NCBI GenBank assembly: GCA_027365415.1
Contig: DAHXNK010000008.1
Coordinates: 1 to 42,467 of the forward strand
Source: Acidobacteriaceae bacterium
GTDB lineage: Bacteria > Acidobacteriota > Terriglobia > Terriglobales > Acidobacteriaceae
Direction: 5' to 3'
DNA: 42,467 bases
The notes beneath the pieces were generated by a model. It was given only the letters and a program-made list of their open reading frames with translations. It was not told where the DNA came from and ran no database searches. A program made the translations under genes and the position numbers. This document shows positions 10,819-17,550 of this stretch, in pieces. Position 1 is the first letter of the stretch. Each line of letters starts with the position of its first letter.

Positions 10819-10858
10819 GCCAGCTTCTTCCGGCCAGCGCTGGGGGGAAGAAGCTGGC
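10819..10858. terminator. 13-bp inverted repeat between convergent fucosidase and mqnA genes
   Basis: Arms GCCAGCTTCTTCC and GGAAGAAGCTGGC are exact complements around a 14-base loop that itself contains the palindrome CCAGCGCTGG. The right arm ends on the first base of the mqnA stop codon, and the left arm begins 22 bases after the fucosidase stop. The position fits a bidirectional terminator or RNA-end stabiliser. There is no clear U-tract on either strand. Confidence 0.55.
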
Positions 10859-11769
10859 TACAAAAAACGCAGCGGCGGGGCCGGAGGCAACACGCCCAGC
10901 TCGGCGGCGTAGCGATAGAACAATCCAAGCCCAGCCAGGCAATTGTCGTCCAGCGTGTAGTGAATGTTGTTTTTCAGATAGGCGCGGATGACCGCAGATG
11001 GCACAGCGGGCGGGCCGATCAGTCGGGGTGTCCACTCCGCGACGATCTCCTCCAAATGCGCCATGCCATGATCGCGAGAGCGTTGAAAGTCGCTCGTTAC
11101 CGCTGCCGCGCTCAAGCCGGATGCCTGTATCGCCTCTGGACGTGCGGCCCAGAAGGCTGAGACCCAGGGCAGCCCGGTGTGCTGCTTCCATTCGTGGGCC
11201 AGGTCGATGTACTCCAGTTGCTCGCCAGTGCGGTTTGCGCGGGCCGCCCGATCTTCGAGCGCCAGCAGCGCTGGATCACCGATGAGCACGGCGGCATCGC
11301 AGTCGGCAAGCATGGCATCCAGATCGCCCGCAAGGTTAATCGCGCGCGGGACAAACTCCGGCACAGCCCCATAGAATTTCCGCAGAATCACCTGTGCGTA
11401 GGCATTCGAGCTGCGCGAGGCCGGGTCTGCCGCGATGCAGCGCAGGCTGCTCATTCCGTTCGGCTGCCGCATCACCAAGAGGATGGAGCGGACATGATCC
11501 AGCGAAGCAATCGCACAGCCGGGGATGACGGCTAGTCCCGGCGTGGTGGCATAGGCTGCGGCTGGCACCAGACCGATATCGGCGCGACCAGCGGCCAACT
11601 CGTCGGCGCACTGCGCGGGCAGTGTCGCGTGAATCTCATAGCGCTCAGCCAGGCGGTTCTGTTCGGGAGGGTGTTCAAAATCCCACATCAGCGGCGCGGG
11701 ATTGAGATATTGAATGGCGGAGATGCACAGCTTTCGGGTCACAGAGGATGTCACAGACAAGTGTAACAA
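10858..11769 (-). CDS. mqnA: Menaquinone biosynthesis protein MqnA (chorismate dehydratase)
   Basis: First enzyme of the futalosine route to menaquinone, converting chorismate to 3-[(1-carboxyvinyl)oxy]benzoate in the cytosol. The protein has the periplasmic-binding-protein-like fold of the MqnA/MqnD family: an opening beta-strand with ISAIQYLNPAPLMW, then LPAQCADELAAGRADIGLVP, a signature of substrate-cleft MqnA proteins, and DAAVLIGDPAL further on. Length (303 at most) is slightly above the usual 270-290. The coordinate given uses a TTG at 11769; in-frame TTG (11760) and GTG (11754, 11742) are alternatives, and the family core begins only at KLCISAIQ, so the true N-terminus is uncertain. 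Other futalosine genes are not in the window. Confidence 0.87.
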   Translation of the reverse strand: MLHLSVTSSVTRKLCISAIQYLNPAPLMWDFEHPPEQNRLAERYEIHATLPAQCADELAAGRADIGLVPAAAYATTPGLAVIPGCAIASLDHVRSILLVMRQPNGMSSLRCIAADPASRSSNAYAQVILRKFYGAVPEFVPRAINLAGDLDAMLADCDAAVLIGDPALLALEDRAARANRTGEQLEYIDLAHEWKQHTGLPWVSAFWAARPEAIQASGLSAAAVTSDFQRSRDHGMAHLEEIVAEWTPRLIGPPAVPSAVIRAYLKNNIHYTLDDNCLAGLGLFYRYAAELGVLPPAPPLRFL

Positions 11770-11795: not shown

Positions 11796-12251
11796 TTACT
11801 TTGTTTTTGCGATGGCCGCGCAGAGTTCTTCGACAGCGCGCAGGTGGTCGAATGTCTTTTTCAATTCTGCCGTTCCGATTTTGTTTTCAAAGAGTCGTTG
11901 CATCTGATCGAGGATTCCAATAACGCGCATGGCGCGTTTCTTGCCGTGGGGCTTCAGCGATAGATGGAATCCTCTGGCATCCTCTGCGTTGATTTTTCTT
12001 TGCAGCAATCCCTTTGCCTCTAGGGAGGAGATGCAATGGCTCACATTGCCGCGACTGGTCGAAAAGGTCGCTGCAAGCTGAGAGGGATTTACTGGACGGG
12101 ACTCCTCAAAAAAAATGGCCACGAGAACCAGCGACTCAAAAAAACTCAATTCCTCGGATCGCAGGATATGACTCAACTCGGCATCGAGCCGACGCGCAAT
12201 GCGGCTTGCCTCAAAGATGGGGCTTTGTCGCAGGAAGGATTCGATGCGCAT
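11796..12251 (-). CDS. MarR-family transcriptional regulator, divergent from the biotin operon
   Basis: Winged-helix regulator of 151 residues. The central HTH region is visible as VNPSQLAATFSTSRGNVSHC followed by ISSLEAKGLLQRKINAEDAR and a GFHLSLKPHG wing, the typical MarR pattern. Flanking N- and C-terminal helices should form the dimer interface. The ATG at 12251 is supported by TAGGAG seven bases upstream. Only 90 bases separate this start from bioB, and a perfect 11-bp-arm palindrome lies between them with one arm touching this gene's ribosome site. Autoregulation plus control of bioBFDAZ is therefore likely (inference). Known biotin regulators are BirA, BioR (GntR) and BioQ (TetR); I know of no characterised MarR-type one. 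The effector is unknown. Confidence 0.9.
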   Translation of the reverse strand: MRIESFLRQSPIFEASRIARRLDAELSHILRSEELSFFESLVLVAIFFEESRPVNPSQLAATFSTSRGNVSHCISSLEAKGLLQRKINAEDARGFHLSLKPHGKKRAMRVIGILDQMQRLFENKIGTAELKKTFDHLRAVEELCAAIAKTK

Positions 12252-12260
12252 GGGAATCTC

Positions 12261-12289
12261 CTAAATAGTTTTTATTGGAAACTATTTAG
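12261..12289. promoter_or_regulatory. 29-bp palindromic operator between marR and bioB
   Basis: Perfect inverted repeat with arms CTAAATAGTTT and AAACTATTTAG separated by seven bases. It is centred in the 90-base gap between divergent starts, about 53 bases before bioB, and overlaps the ribosome site of the MarR gene. A/T-rich palindromes of this size are typical MarR dimer sites. No second copy was noticed elsewhere in the window. Confidence 0.75.
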
Positions 12290-12341: not shown

Positions 12342-13340
12342 ATGCTATCCAACATTTCCAACCTTGAGCGCGCTGCGGAGTCTTCCGCGCTGGCGCAAAC
12401 CGCCTTGGGGCTGTATCAAAAACATTTTTTTGATCTTCTATATGAAGCGCACGCGGTGCATCGCTCGTTTCATGCGCTCGAAGACATCCAGCGATGTGTC
12501 CTGCTGTCGATCAAGACCGGGGGATGCTCGGAAGATTGTGGCTACTGCTCCCAATCAGCGCACCACAAGACCGGCTTGGAGCGGCGTCCGCTCCTGTCCG
12601 TTGAGGATGTTCGCGCAGCGGTCACGCAGGCGAAGGAAGCAGGGGCGCAACGATTTTGCATGGGGGCGGCGTGGCGGCAAGCTCCAGAGGGCGAGCAATT
12701 CGAGCGGGTTCTGGATATGGTTCGCACCATCAAGTCCTTCGGCTTGGAAGCCTGTACGACACTTGGAATGTTGACGCTGGCTCAGGCGCAGCAACTGAAG
12801 CACGCTGGCCTCGATGCATACAACCACAATCTCGACACCAGCCGCGAGTATTATCCGAAGATCGTAACGACGCGCACCTATGATGACCGCTTGAACACGC
12901 TGCGCGTGGCACGCGAGGCGGGATTGACAATTTGCAGTGGAGGAATCATCGGCTTGGGAGAAAGCATCGAGGATCGATGCGCGATGGTGGCTGAACTGGC
13001 CGCTCTCGATCCGCAACCCGAATCGGTTCCCATCAATCTTTTGATGCCGGTTCCCGGAACGCCTCTGGAAAAGGCTCCCGATGTTGCAGTGACAGACTTG
13101 GTTCGGACGATTGCGGTGGCGCGTATTCTGATGCCGCGATCGCGCGTGCGGCTCTCCGCCGGGCGCGTGCATCTGTCGCAGGAGGCGCAACTGCTCGCTT
13201 TATTTGCCGGAGCCAACTCCGTTTTTATTGGCGAGAAGCTGCTGACGACGCCGAATGCGACGCTATCGGCGGATGAGGAGATGTTTGCCTGCCTTGCCAG
13301 TGGCGATGTACGGGGAAGCGTCTCCGATGCCGGGAACTGA
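12342..13340 (+). CDS. bioB: Biotin synthase
   Basis: Radical-SAM enzyme of 332 residues that inserts sulfur into dethiobiotin. The 4Fe-4S/SAM cysteines are C62, C66 and C69 in the motif GGCSEDCGYCSQ. The family blocks FCMGAAWR, AYNHNLDTSREYYPKI, CSGGIIGLGES and NLLMPVPGTPLE follow, and the conserved Arg of the 2Fe-2S site lies in RVRLSAGRVHL. The reading frame stays open far upstream, across the MarR gene. ATG at 12342 is chosen because the protein then has family length and starts after the shared promoter; no ideal ribosome site is seen, only GGTGGA directly before the ATG. First gene of bioBFDAZ; the next start lies inside its 3' end. Confidence 0.96.
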   Translation: MLSNISNLERAAESSALAQTALGLYQKHFFDLLYEAHAVHRSFHALEDIQRCVLLSIKTGGCSEDCGYCSQSAHHKTGLERRPLLSVEDVRAAVTQAKEAGAQRFCMGAAWRQAPEGEQFERVLDMVRTIKSFGLEACTTLGMLTLAQAQQLKHAGLDAYNHNLDTSREYYPKIVTTRTYDDRLNTLRVAREAGLTICSGGIIGLGESIEDRCAMVAELAALDPQPESVPINLLMPVPGTPLEKAPDVAVTDLVRTIAVARILMPRSRVRLSAGRVHLSQEAQLLALFAGANSVFIGEKLLTTPNATLSADEEMFACLASGDVRGSVSDAGN

Positions 13341-14478
13341 CGCGAACCTGGAATCCAGAATTTGCAATCGGTTGGCGCGGTTACAAGCCGAGGGGCTGTA
13401 TCGAAGACTTCAGCCGCCGACGGGAATCGATTTCTGCTCGAACGATTATCTGCGGCTGGCCGCGCATCCACAGTTGAAGATGCGCATGTCCGTAGCGGTT
13501 TTGGAAGAAGGCTGCGGCTCGACCGGTTCTCGATTGCTGCGCGGCGACCGAGCAGGCTTTTCTGCCATCGAGCGGCGATTCGCGCAGTGGAAAGGAACCG
13601 AGGCCGCGCTCTATTTCGGAAGCGGTTACGCGGCCAATCTTGCCGTGCTTTCGACATTCCTAGAGGAGGGCGATGTTGTTTTCTTCGACCGCCTGAACCA
13701 CGCCAGCCTGATTGATGGCATGAAACTGGGGAAGGCAAAAAAAAATATCTTCCCCCACGCAGATTTGCAGACGCTCCGGCGCTATCTGGAATCCACTCCC
13801 ACGTCGGGGCAGCGATTTTTGGTGACAGAATCCCTTTTCAGCATGGATGGTGACCTGGCCCCGCTGCGCGAGTACGCGGCGCTGTGCAGCGAGGCAGGCG
13901 TTGCTCTGATTGTGGATGAGGCCCATGCTGTCGGCGTGTATGGAGAGCGCGGCACTGGCCTTATTGAGGAAGCCGGAATTACGAAGGATGTTTTCCTCTC
14001 GATCAATTCTGCGGGAAAGGCGCTGGGTGTTAGCGGGGCTTTTGTGGCTGGAGCATCCTGGGCCATTGAATATCTGATGCAGCGCGGACGAACTTTTTTG
14101 TTCTCGACCGCGCCGCCGCCCTCTGTGGCAGCGGCGATGGATGCCGCGTTGGACATTATCGGGCAGGAGCCGGAACGTCGAAGCCAGTTGCACGCGCTGA
14201 CCAAACAATTGCGTTCCCTTCTCGCTGATGCAGGGCTGGAGGTTGCGCGAGATGGGTCGCAAATTATCCCTGTTCTTATCGGGGAAAATACTTGCGCCGT
14301 CCGTGTTGCCACAGCGTTGCAGGCAGAGGGGTTTGATGTGCGCGCCATTCGTCCGCCAACGGTTCCAGAGGGAACGGCGCGGTTGCGGCTCTCCATCAAT
14401 ACCGGGCTGGAGGAAGACGTGCTGCGGCGTTTCTCTACCTGCTTGCATATTGCTCTATCCCACGCGAGGATCGCATGA
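13327..14478 (+). CDS. bioF: 8-amino-7-oxononanoate synthase
   Basis: PLP enzyme of the alpha-oxoamine synthase family, 383 residues, condensing pimeloyl-ACP (or -CoA) with L-alanine. The PLP lysine is K231 in SAGKALGVSGAF; DEAHAVGVYG carries the cofactor Asp and His; FCSNDYLRLAAHP is the N-terminal family block, and GSGYAANLAV and FSTAPPPSVAAA are also present. ATG at 13327 has GGGGAAG eight bases upstream and overlaps the bioB end by 14 bases; an ATG at 13306 is an alternative. The stop overlaps bioD as ATGA. Confidence 0.95.
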   Translation: MPGTDANLESRICNRLARLQAEGLYRRLQPPTGIDFCSNDYLRLAAHPQLKMRMSVAVLEEGCGSTGSRLLRGDRAGFSAIERRFAQWKGTEAALYFGSGYAANLAVLSTFLEEGDVVFFDRLNHASLIDGMKLGKAKKNIFPHADLQTLRRYLESTPTSGQRFLVTESLFSMDGDLAPLREYAALCSEAGVALIVDEAHAVGVYGERGTGLIEEAGITKDVFLSINSAGKALGVSGAFVAGASWAIEYLMQRGRTFLFSTAPPPSVAAAMDAALDIIGQEPERRSQLHALTKQLRSLLADAGLEVARDGSQIIPVLIGENTCAVRVATALQAEGFDVRAIRPPTVPEGTARLRLSINTGLEEDVLRRFSTCLHIALSHARIA

Positions 14479-15146
14479 TCGGCCTATTTGTAACTGGCAC
14501 GGATACAAATATAGGAAAGACATCCGTTTGCGCGGCGCTGCTGCATCGCTACCGACGCATCGCAAGCCTGCGCTACTGGAAACCGGTGCAGACAGGCTCT
14601 CCCGAAGATGACGACACGGCCACCGCGCGCGCGCTTGGCCAATGTTCTGACGCGGAGATTTGCATGGAAGGCGTTCGGCTGCCACGACCCTTGTCTCCGC
14701 ACCTTGCCGCCCGGTTGCATGGAGAAGAAATCCATCTGCAACAACTGCTTGCCCCAGCGGAGAACGCGGATGGGTCGCGTGCCTGGATTGTCGAAGGCGC
14801 TGGAGGAGTGCTGGTGCCGCTGAATGCCTCGTGCCTGATCGTCGATCTGATCGCGGCTCTTGGATTGCCAACGCTGGTCGTGGCGCGTTCCTCGTTGGGC
14901 ACCATCAACCACACGCTGCTCACGCTGGAAGCGCTGCGAGCCAGAGGGCAGAAGATTGCGGGAGTGGTGATGGTGGGAGATCCCAATCCTGAGAATCGGC
15001 GCGCTATTGAGCAGTACGGAAACGTTGCCGTGATCGGCGAGATGCCGTTCTTTTCGTCGCTGACGCCGAATAGTGTTGCCGATTGGGCGCTGCGCGAACT
15101 CGATCCGCAGGGTGTGCTCGAATCCATATTCACGGAGGCGCGTTGA
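14475..15146 (+). CDS. bioD: ATP-dependent dethiobiotin synthetase
   Basis: Cytosolic enzyme of 223 residues closing the ureido ring from 7,8-diaminopelargonic acid, CO2 and ATP. The modified P-loop is GTDTNIGKT (8-16). KPVQTGS supplies the conserved substrate-binding Lys, and VEGAGGVLVPL carries the Glu-Gly-Ala-Gly-Gly motif. Length is standard. ATG overlaps the bioF stop by four bases, and bioA starts two bases after its stop, so the genes are translationally coupled. Confidence 0.95.
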   Translation: MIGLFVTGTDTNIGKTSVCAALLHRYRRIASLRYWKPVQTGSPEDDDTATARALGQCSDAEICMEGVRLPRPLSPHLAARLHGEEIHLQQLLAPAENADGSRAWIVEGAGGVLVPLNASCLIVDLIAALGLPTLVVARSSLGTINHTLLTLEALRARGQKIAGVVMVGDPNPENRRAIEQYGNVAVIGEMPFFSSLTPNSVADWALRELDPQGVLESIFTEAR

Positions 15147-15148
15147 GG

Positions 15149-16537
15149 ATGAATGCTCCACGCAAAACTGTTTCGGCGGGCGAGTGCAACGCGGATGCAA
15201 GCTCCGACTGGCAGCAGTGGGATCGCGCCTATCTCTGGCATCCGTATACGCAGATGCAGACGGCGCCAATGCCCGTGCCGATTATTCGCGGTGAGGGAAT
15301 GTATTTGTATCGGCCCGATGGCACGCGCATTCTGGATGGCATCTCGTCCTGGTGGGTCAACATTCATGGCCATTGCCATCCTTACATCAATGCCGCATTG
15401 CGTAAGCAGGCCGAAGAGTTAGAGCATGTGATGTTTGCTGGCTTCACGCATAGCCCCGCAGCCATTCTTGCCGAACGTCTCGTTCAAGTTCTGCCATCGG
15501 GACTGCGACGCATTTTTTACTCTGACAATGGTTCGACCGCCGTGGAAGTGGCGCTGAAGATGGCGTTGCAGTATTGGCGAAATCAGGGGCAGGAGCAGCG
15601 GCGCGCCTTTGTCATGCTCGACCACGCCTATCATGGCGATACTGTCGGCGCTATGTCCGCCAGCGCCGCCTCGTTGTTTACGGAGTCCTTTCAGCCGCTG
15701 CTCTTTCCTGTAGAGCGCGCGCACGCGCCGTATTGTTATCGCTGTCCCGCGGCGCTCGATCCGGCTCGGTGTCAGATTGACTGCCTGACGAGTCTCCGAA
15801 ATATATTGGAGGCGCAAAGCGGAAAGATTGCGGGCGTGCTGGTGGAACCGATGTTGCAAGCTGCGGGAGGCATGATTATCTGGCCGAAGAAATTCTTGCA
15901 GGGCGTGCGCCAGCTCTGCGACGCGCATGGGACGCTGATGATTGCGGATGAAGTGTTGACCGGGTTTGGCCGCACGGGAAAAATGTTTGCCTGTGAACAC
16001 GCGCAGATCAGTCCTGATTTGATGTGTCTCTCCAAGGCGCTTACTGGAGGCTATCTGCCGATGGGGGTGACGGCGGCAACAGAGGAAATTTACGACGCAT
16101 TCCTCAGCGATGATCGCCGCAAGACTTTTTTTCATGGACATTCCTTTACCGCCAATCCATTGGCCTGCGCCGTGTCCATTGCCAGCCTGGAACTGCTGCA
16201 CAGGGAGAACTCGCTGGCGCGTGTGGTCGCGCTGGAAGCGCTCTTTCACTCCAGAAAAGCGACGTTGCAGGAGCTTCCTTACGTCGGGGATGTTCGCATT
16301 CTTGGCGGTGTGCTTGCGCTGGAACTGGTACGCGACAAACAGACGCGAGAGGCCGGGGGGTATCTGGATCGCGTCGGCCCTGCATTGACGCAAGCATTTT
16401 TGGATCGTGGATTATTGCTGCGGCCCTTGGGAAATGTGCTGTATTTTATGCCGCCGTACATCATTCGCGACGAAGAGGCCCATTGTGTGCTCGACCAGAT
16501 TGAAGACGTGCTGCAACATTGGCAGTGGCCGCAGTAG
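15149..16537 (+). CDS. bioA: Adenosylmethionine-8-amino-7-oxononanoate aminotransferase
   Basis: Class III PLP aminotransferase, 462 residues, using SAM as amino donor to make 7,8-diaminopelargonic acid. The BioA hallmark SSWWVNIHGHCHP separates it from other class III enzymes. The PLP lysine is K296 in SKALTGGYLPMG, and DEVLTGFGRTG holds the cofactor Asp. The N-terminal substrate-site block WDRAYLWHPYTQMQ is present. ATG at 15149 is two bases after bioD and has GGAGG about ten bases upstream; an earlier in-frame start inside bioD was not used. A Cys-rich stretch (PYCYRCPAALDPARCQIDC, about residues 195-213) is of the kind seen in some BioA proteins. Confidence 0.95.
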   Translation: MNAPRKTVSAGECNADASSDWQQWDRAYLWHPYTQMQTAPMPVPIIRGEGMYLYRPDGTRILDGISSWWVNIHGHCHPYINAALRKQAEELEHVMFAGFTHSPAAILAERLVQVLPSGLRRIFYSDNGSTAVEVALKMALQYWRNQGQEQRRAFVMLDHAYHGDTVGAMSASAASLFTESFQPLLFPVERAHAPYCYRCPAALDPARCQIDCLTSLRNILEAQSGKIAGVLVEPMLQAAGGMIIWPKKFLQGVRQLCDAHGTLMIADEVLTGFGRTGKMFACEHAQISPDLMCLSKALTGGYLPMGVTAATEEIYDAFLSDDRRKTFFHGHSFTANPLACAVSIASLELLHRENSLARVVALEALFHSRKATLQELPYVGDVRILGGVLALELVRDKQTREAGGYLDRVGPALTQAFLDRGLLLRPLGNVLYFMPPYIIRDEEAHCVLDQIEDVLQHWQWPQ

Positions 16538-16566: not shown

Positions 16567-17550
16567 TTGCTCGATATAAAGGTAGCCGGGGTTGGTTCGG
16601 TCGTGCCGCGCACTGGAACCGAGAATGCGGAGATGGAAGCGCGTCTCGGTCTGGAATCTGGCTGGATTGAAAAGCGGACAGGCGTTTGTTTTCGTCCCAT
16701 TGCCGAGGATGTTGTTGCGACCTCTGATCTGGCTGTTCCGGCAGGCCAGCGCGCTCTCGACATGGCCTGTATTCCGCCTGCGGAGATCGGACTTTTGCTG
16801 CTGGCCACCAGCACGCCCGATCATCTTTTGCCGCCGACGGCTCCGTTGGTGGCGCACAGGCTGGCGCTCGCGAATGCGGGAGCGATAGATATGGCGGGCG
16901 CGTGTTCTGGATTTCTCTATGCCTTTGTCATGGGCGCGAGCTTCGCGCAGGCAATGCAAAAGCCCGTGCTGGTGATCGCCGCCAACATTCTCTCGCGGCG
17001 CGTCGATCCGATGGATCGCAATACTGCGACGCTCTTTGGCGATGGCGCAGGCGCGGTTGTTCTTATGCCATCGGGGTCGGATGTGTCGCATCTTCTGGGA
17101 ACGCACTTGGCCGCCGACGGCTCGCAGTACGATGCGATGGGCATTCCTGCGGGTGGCACGCGGGAGCCGCTGACCGCCGCAGGGTTGCACGCGGGGCGAC
17201 ATCGCATGATGCTTCGGGATGGCAAGGGACTCTTCAAGCATGCCTCTGGCATGATGGCGGAAGCGGGTCGCCGCGCTTTGCTGGAAGCGAAGCTGAGTGT
17301 CAAGGATATTGACTGGTGGATTCCGCATCAGGCCAACCTGCGCATGATCCGCGAGACAGGAAGGATTCTTGGCATTCCATCCGAACGCACCGTCACAGTG
17401 ATGGATCGCTATGCAAACAGCTCCGCCGCTACGATTCCCATTGCCTTGGTCGAGGCGGTTGCAGACGGACGCATCTGTAAGGGCGATACGCTGCTTCTCA
17501 CCGCTGCCGGGGCGGGCATGATGTCCGCTGGGATCGTTTTGCGATGGTAG
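16567..17550 (+). CDS. bioZ: KASIII-type condensing enzyme, probable BioZ (pimeloyl-ACP precursor synthesis)
   Basis: Beta-ketoacyl-ACP synthase III fold, 327 residues, with an intact catalytic triad: C113 in AGACSGF, H254 in IPHQAN and N284 in YANSSAAT. FGDGAGAVVL is the family glycine loop. It is the fifth gene of a bio operon in the order bioB-F-D-A-Z, identical to alpha-proteobacterial operons where BioZ condenses glutaryl-CoA with malonyl-ACP towards pimeloyl-ACP (established there). No bioC, bioH, bioI or bioW is seen nearby, which fits. The start is taken as TTG 16567 because AGAAAGGA lies ten bases upstream and only 29 bases then separate it from bioA; TTG 16519 would overlap bioA. 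A housekeeping FabH cannot be excluded by sequence alone. Confidence 0.78.
   Translation: MLDIKVAGVGSVVPRTGTENAEMEARLGLESGWIEKRTGVCFRPIAEDVVATSDLAVPAGQRALDMACIPPAEIGLLLLATSTPDHLLPPTAPLVAHRLALANAGAIDMAGACSGFLYAFVMGASFAQAMQKPVLVIAANILSRRVDPMDRNTATLFGDGAGAVVLMPSGSDVSHLLGTHLAADGSQYDAMGIPAGGTREPLTAAGLHAGRHRMMLRDGKGLFKHASGMMAEAGRRALLEAKLSVKDIDWWIPHQANLRMIRETGRILGIPSERTVTVMDRYANSSAATIPIALVEAVADGRICKGDTLLLTAAGAGMMSAGIVLRW

Follow-up and report, generated by a model that had tools for sequence, protein, structure and literature searches.

The window, by which we mean the whole 42,467-nucleotide stretch of Acidobacteriaceae DNA that was analysed, contains a biotin operon whose last gene encodes a ketoacyl-ACP synthase III (KASIII), and the question raised by this locus is whether the gene encodes a FabH of fatty-acid synthesis or a BioZ that would open the biotin pathway. 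The window makes up contig C191 of a MAG with 2.09 Mb of sequence and 90.3% completeness, and the gene absences reported below for this MAG (~90% complete) rest on profile searches. The KASIII frame is intact, codes for 327 residues, begins 29 nt past the bioA stop and is preceded by AAAGGA about 10 nt upstream of its TTG start. Counting from that start, the coordinates and the Cys-His-Asn triad (C113, H254 and N284) put forward in the first-pass annotation were reproduced exactly, as was the order bioB-F-D-A-KASIII, which the family profiles of the four upstream genes confirm (Table 1); the claimed lack of bioC, bioH, bioI and bioW inside the cluster likewise holds at the locus. The operon is compact, with all five genes on the forward strand and joined by overlaps, abutments or short gaps. 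Scans for sigma-70 promoters and terminators across the operon gave no signal clearly exceeding that of shuffled sequences, and an Rfam search of the window returned tRNA and nothing else. Upstream, on the reverse strand (10858-11769), lies a gene whose product resembles by eye MqnA of the futalosine menaquinone pathway, with no NCBIfam match at E 0.001.

Table 1. Features of the biotin locus, in window coordinates.
Feature	Position	Strand	Remarks
MarR-type regulator gene, candidate operon regulator	11796..12251	-	Divergent from bioB; weak MarR-family matches; same place in the congener locus (L038)
Palindrome CTAAATAGTTT-N7-AAACTATTTAG, candidate operator	12261..12289	.	Between the MarR gene and bioB; 11-bp perfect arms
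bioB, biotin synthase	12342..13340	+	Start inferred, mechanical ORF from 12036; TIGR00433 378.6 bits, cut-off 225
bioF	13327..14478	+	Best family TIGR00858, 393.5 bits, just below cut-off 426.45
bioD, dethiobiotin synthase	14475..15146	+	TIGR00347 133.9 bits, cut-off 83.3
bioA, DAPA aminotransferase	15149..16537	+	Start inferred; TIGR00508 576.4 bits, cut-off 405
bioZ, 3-oxopimeloyl-ACP synthase (KASIII family)	16567..17550	+	327 aa, TTG start; BioZ clade, best PDB matches, triad, S82/R145/S286

The association of this KASIII with biotin genes is not a chance one, since the same gene order occurs in a second genome of the genus (L038, 92% identical) and since at least one other bio gene was present in the fetched flanks of 76 of 80 related loci that had been found by the KASIII alone. 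These 80 loci came from a scan of a genome collection with a three-sequence alignment that required the motif LGLE[SA]GW or [TIV][EA]NAE, so that divergent BioZ proteins are missed. They belong chiefly to Hyphomicrobiales, together with four acidobacteria carrying alpha-proteobacterial-type copies, Pyrinomonas, a Fimbriiglobus MAG and the same-genus MAG LSA3.bin29. One record, titled Bacillus subtilis SK6B4 (L087), carries an alpha-type bioBFDAZ operon that scores closest to Pseudochrobactrum, and its assembly is probably mislabelled or contaminated.

A housekeeping or secondary FabH that happens to lie beside bio genes, primed with acetyl-CoA or a branched acyl-CoA, would have the same fold and catalytic triad, and beta-ketoacyl-ACP synthase III is indeed the public annotation of such genes. 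The window protein also passes the general NCBIfam FabH model PRK09352 (305 bits, cut-off 249), although its top-scoring family is PRK05963, a model of narrow scope that appears to stand for alpha-proteobacterial BioZ and whose curated cut-off of 437 the protein, at 391 bits, does not reach. In a tree of 67 KASIIIs, which was built without the Rhodothermus and Marinithermus BioZ proteins and without a KASIII-like protein of Granulicella (L147), a single branch with 100/100 support separates all bio-linked KASIIIs, including that of the window, from all FabHs; the grouping with FabH that would have contradicted the BioZ-like assignment of the first-pass annotation was not seen. The excluded Granulicella protein (G155:C6:21423-22304) has Ser in place of the active-site Cys and reads GSRHNS at six checked positions, with the Arg discussed below present.

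Comparisons with known structures point the same way. The first three PDB sequence matches of the window protein are BioZ chains (E of about 1e-85 to 1e-86), the best FabH standing at 2e-63, and the top structural match of its AlphaFold2 model (pLDDT 91.5) is Agrobacterium tumefaciens BioZ (AtBioZ) with glutaryl-CoA (Z 50.0 and 49.5, 49-50% identity), with FabHs scoring 47 or less; because the fold is common to all KASIIIs, the sequence evidence is the stronger of the two. In AtBioZ, residues S84, R147 and S287 sit where the tunnel ends, and docking and mutagenesis led to the proposal that they neutralise the free carboxylate of glutaryl-CoA; the S84A and S287A variants failed to complement, and R147A left partial activity (PMC8024396). 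These residues align with S82, R145 and S286 of the window protein. The equivalent of Arg145 was present in every full-length bio-linked KASIII of the aligned set and in none of its clear FabHs, where the position is occupied by I, V, Y, F, L or T, and it alone of the three discriminates BioZ from FabH because some FabHs also have the two serines.

The MAG moreover encodes a second KASIII, a typical acidobacterial FabH fragment cut by the end of contig C162; across 170 alignment columns it shows no difference from the intact FabH of the congener, which has the same operon. The window KASIII is thus not the sole KASIII of the genome, a point that the first-pass annotation had left to a genome-wide search, and with a separate FabH available it is therefore not the housekeeping enzyme. 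Taken together with the linkage to bio genes, these data make a FabH identity very improbable, and the residue and tree comparisons identify the window KASIII as a genuine BioZ.

The explanation that best accounts for these observations, to which we assign a probability of roughly 90% from sequence comparison, is that the gene is a bioZ whose product would provide a glutaryl-CoA-primed start of biotin synthesis in place of BioC and BioH. By homology, the predicted substrate of the window enzyme is glutaryl-CoA: BioZ would load its glutaryl group onto Cys113 and condense it with malonyl-ACP to yield 3-oxopimeloyl-ACP, which ordinary fatty-acid enzymes would reduce to pimeloyl-ACP; the operon's own BioF, BioA, BioD and BioB would then carry this on to biotin. 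Concerning the routes that BioZ would replace, no BioC above the curated cut-off of 185 was found in the MAG or in 59 family members, the MAG's own best match reaching 55 bits and covering the SAM-binding core only. The expectation that bioC is missing elsewhere in the genome hence stands as far as this profile goes, but the profile is weakly informative, because just one of 14 control genomes reaches the cut-off. BioW was found in none of the six acidobacterial BioZ genomes.

The supply of glutaryl-CoA bears on a second alternative, namely that a BioZ-family enzyme uses another dicarboxylyl primer, such as succinyl-CoA or adipyl-CoA, and reaches the pimelate moiety by a different chain arithmetic. 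A. tumefaciens makes glutaryl-CoA from glutarate with CaiB, a type III CoA transferase, and requires biotin once caiB is disrupted (PMC7645780). Members of the corresponding family (PF02515) were absent from the profile matches of the six acidobacterial BioZ genomes (G000, the window MAG; G149, its congener; and G150, G153, G154 and G155), and the same search recovered one member in A. tumefaciens and five in Phyllobacterium. That CaiB-type activation of glutarate went undetected, and that identity to a characterised BioZ is just ~50%, are what another primer has in its favour. Yet the carboxylate-binding residues and the stretches STPDHLLPP and ANILSRR are almost constant across the clade, and bioF implies the usual pimeloyl chemistry, for which a C5 primer and a C2 unit give the pimeloyl chain in a single step; we accordingly see only a slim chance for a primer other than glutaryl-CoA.

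If glutaryl-CoA is the primer, it would come from a source other than CaiB. No glutaryl-CoA dehydrogenase was recognised in the search made for one beside the alpha-proteobacterial CoA transferases. The E1 component of 2-oxoglutarate dehydrogenase was found in all of the searched acidobacterial BioZ genomes except the MAG BWOrgControl, and E. coli E1 reductively glutarylates its own lipoyl domain from 2-oxoadipate at 22 per s, compared to 99 per s with 2-oxoglutarate (PMC5986005). Because E1 is present and its E. coli counterpart takes 2-oxoadipate, the 2-oxoglutarate dehydrogenase complex is, by analogy, a reasonable candidate source of glutaryl-CoA via 2-oxoadipate. The acidobacterial E1 (29013-31304 on contig C33 of the window MAG; also in G149 and G153-G155) is a protein of about 840 residues whose match starts at about model position 150, and it is possibly shortened at its N-terminus; in the window MAG and the congener its gene adjoins a glycine-oxidase-like gene.

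The tree also bears on the origin of the gene, for which the first-pass annotation had left a choice between transfer and older descent. A clade (97/93) that unites the BioZ proteins of the window, its congener, two Pyrinomonas and the planctomycete MAG Fimbriiglobus is sister to the alpha-proteobacterial clade (100/98). In contrast, those of Granulicella S190, Silvibacterium bohemicum, Edaphobacter lichenicola and the MAG BWOrgControl form a group (99/94) inside the alpha clade, near Microvirga, and a constraint joining the window pair with these four was rejected (p-AU 4.8e-5). Sequence comparison thus indicates that BioZ was gained at least twice in the Acidobacteriota, and the choice resolves as both: the window genus has an older non-alpha lineage, and four other acidobacteria received the gene in a separate transfer from alpha-proteobacteria. 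The BioB proteins of these four are nested like their BioZ, in a BioB tree some of whose rows are long-branched, and the alpha-type operon therefore probably moved as a unit. Window BioB groups with that of another family member (G194) and Fimbriiglobus (97/95), in agreement with BioZ for Fimbriiglobus; Pyrinomonas BioB is placed elsewhere, and its bioB thus has another history.

The four alpha-type acidobacterial bioBFDAZ loci (L033, 3264-9058; L041; L042; L044) also differ in their putative regulators. A BioR-like GntR gene is divergent from bioB in three of them and was not found in the Silvibacterium locus, and in Granulicella a TTATCTATAA site lies between the regulator and bioB, as in Agrobacterium, even though BioR has been described as exclusive to certain alpha-proteobacteria (PMC4554459). 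A recent transfer from an alpha-proteobacterium to the window, a course that those four acidobacteria illustrate with their BioZ and BioB nested in Hyphomicrobiales and with the BioR-like genes and BioR-type box just described, is most unlikely for the window bioZ, which is ~50% identical to alpha and alpha-derived copies alike, sits in the non-alpha clade with Pyrinomonas and Fimbriiglobus and belongs to one of two acidobacteriaceal sets that do not form a single clade (p 5e-5).

The BioZ route has been shown mainly in alpha-proteobacteria, and BioZ proteins from outside this class have been published, so the kind is known: those of Rhodothermus marinus and Marinithermus hydrothermalis lie in bio clusters, like that of the window, and were reported to complement E. 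coli bioC and bioH mutants (PMC7645780). With AtBioZ (PDB 6kue, 9j6e and 9w96) the window protein shares its fold (Z 49-50), triad, Ser/Arg/Ser set, 50% identity and last place in bioBFDAZ; unlike AtBioZ, it comes from another phylum and a deep separate subclade, it is accompanied by a MarR gene and a different palindrome with no BioR-type gene or box found, and a CaiB-type CoA transferase was undetected in its genome. Outside the window genus, its nearest relatives are the BioZ of Pyrinomonas methylaliphatogenes K22 (56%) and of the Fimbriiglobus MAG (54%), both with bio genes; Fimbriiglobus bioZ is last, as in the window, whereas the Pyrinomonas order is bioB-F-Z-A with bioD further on. In the Pyrinomonas locus (L032, 2749-9357) a transposase-like gene, IS605-type by eye, lies between bioD and bioBFZA. 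The alpha-type operons of Granulicella sp. S190, S. bohemicum, E. lichenicola X5P2 and BWOrgControl share with the window the family or phylum and the gene order, but Granulicella BioZ is 78-81% identical to Microvirga and 50% to the window, consistent with a separate acquisition. To this known kind the analysis adds an acidobacterial membership, two origins, a CaiB-type transferase that went undetected and a candidate MarR control.

Known biotin repressors include BirA, BioR, BioQ and BioL. BioL was considered for the divergent regulator of the window and ruled out, as it is a MocR-family protein (PMC12915131); a text search showed no MarR-type biotin repressor among the titles and abstracts listed, and the BioR box TTATMKATAA does not occur in the window. 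The arms of the palindrome are kept in the congener (10 bp) with an altered spacer, and the core pattern AAATAGTTTN{5,9}AAACTATTT occurs at one place per genome in both genomes of the genus, its reversed control never occurring. The divergent MarR protein probably controls the operon at this palindrome, and would represent a candidate new class of biotin repressor. In G194, of the same family, a MarR homologue is divergent from a lone bioB (L191, 7525-9003); the window palindrome and a close BioA are absent there, and this bacterium possibly turns scavenged dethiobiotin into biotin. The combined proposal, that acidobacterial BioZ operons draw on a non-CaiB supply of glutaryl-CoA, such as a 2-oxoglutarate dehydrogenase complex that decarboxylates 2-oxoadipate, and that the operon of this genus is under a MarR-type biotin repressor of an undescribed class, is tentative, and we would place it somewhat short of even odds.

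Across 149 sampled Acidobacteriota genomes, bioB scored above its cut-off in 31 and a BioZ-like KASIII (>50% identity) was found in three; within the family, four of 60 genomes have bioB (the window MAG, its congener, G194 and G073). BioZ genes were further found on 71 plasmid records, mainly rhizobial and 17 of them predicted conjugative, which makes plasmids a plausible vehicle of their spread. No paper joining Acidobacteria with a BioZ enzyme was recognised among the titles and abstracts listed, subscription journals being outside the coverage.

BioZ is thus wider than its alpha-proteobacterial home, and probably older, and BioZ-type biotin synthesis is now firmly placed in the Acidobacteriota. 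Because databases label such genes ketoacyl-ACP synthase III, the route is easily overlooked, and one Arg told the two enzymes apart in our set. With a CaiB-type transferase undetected, cultured acidobacteria, among them Granulicella, Edaphobacter and Pyrinomonas, become systems in which the origin of glutaryl-CoA for biotin can be tested. Few genomes of the phylum and of the family carry bioB, so the pathway gives the impression of an escape from apparent biotin dependence that is patchily distributed and has been acquired repeatedly.
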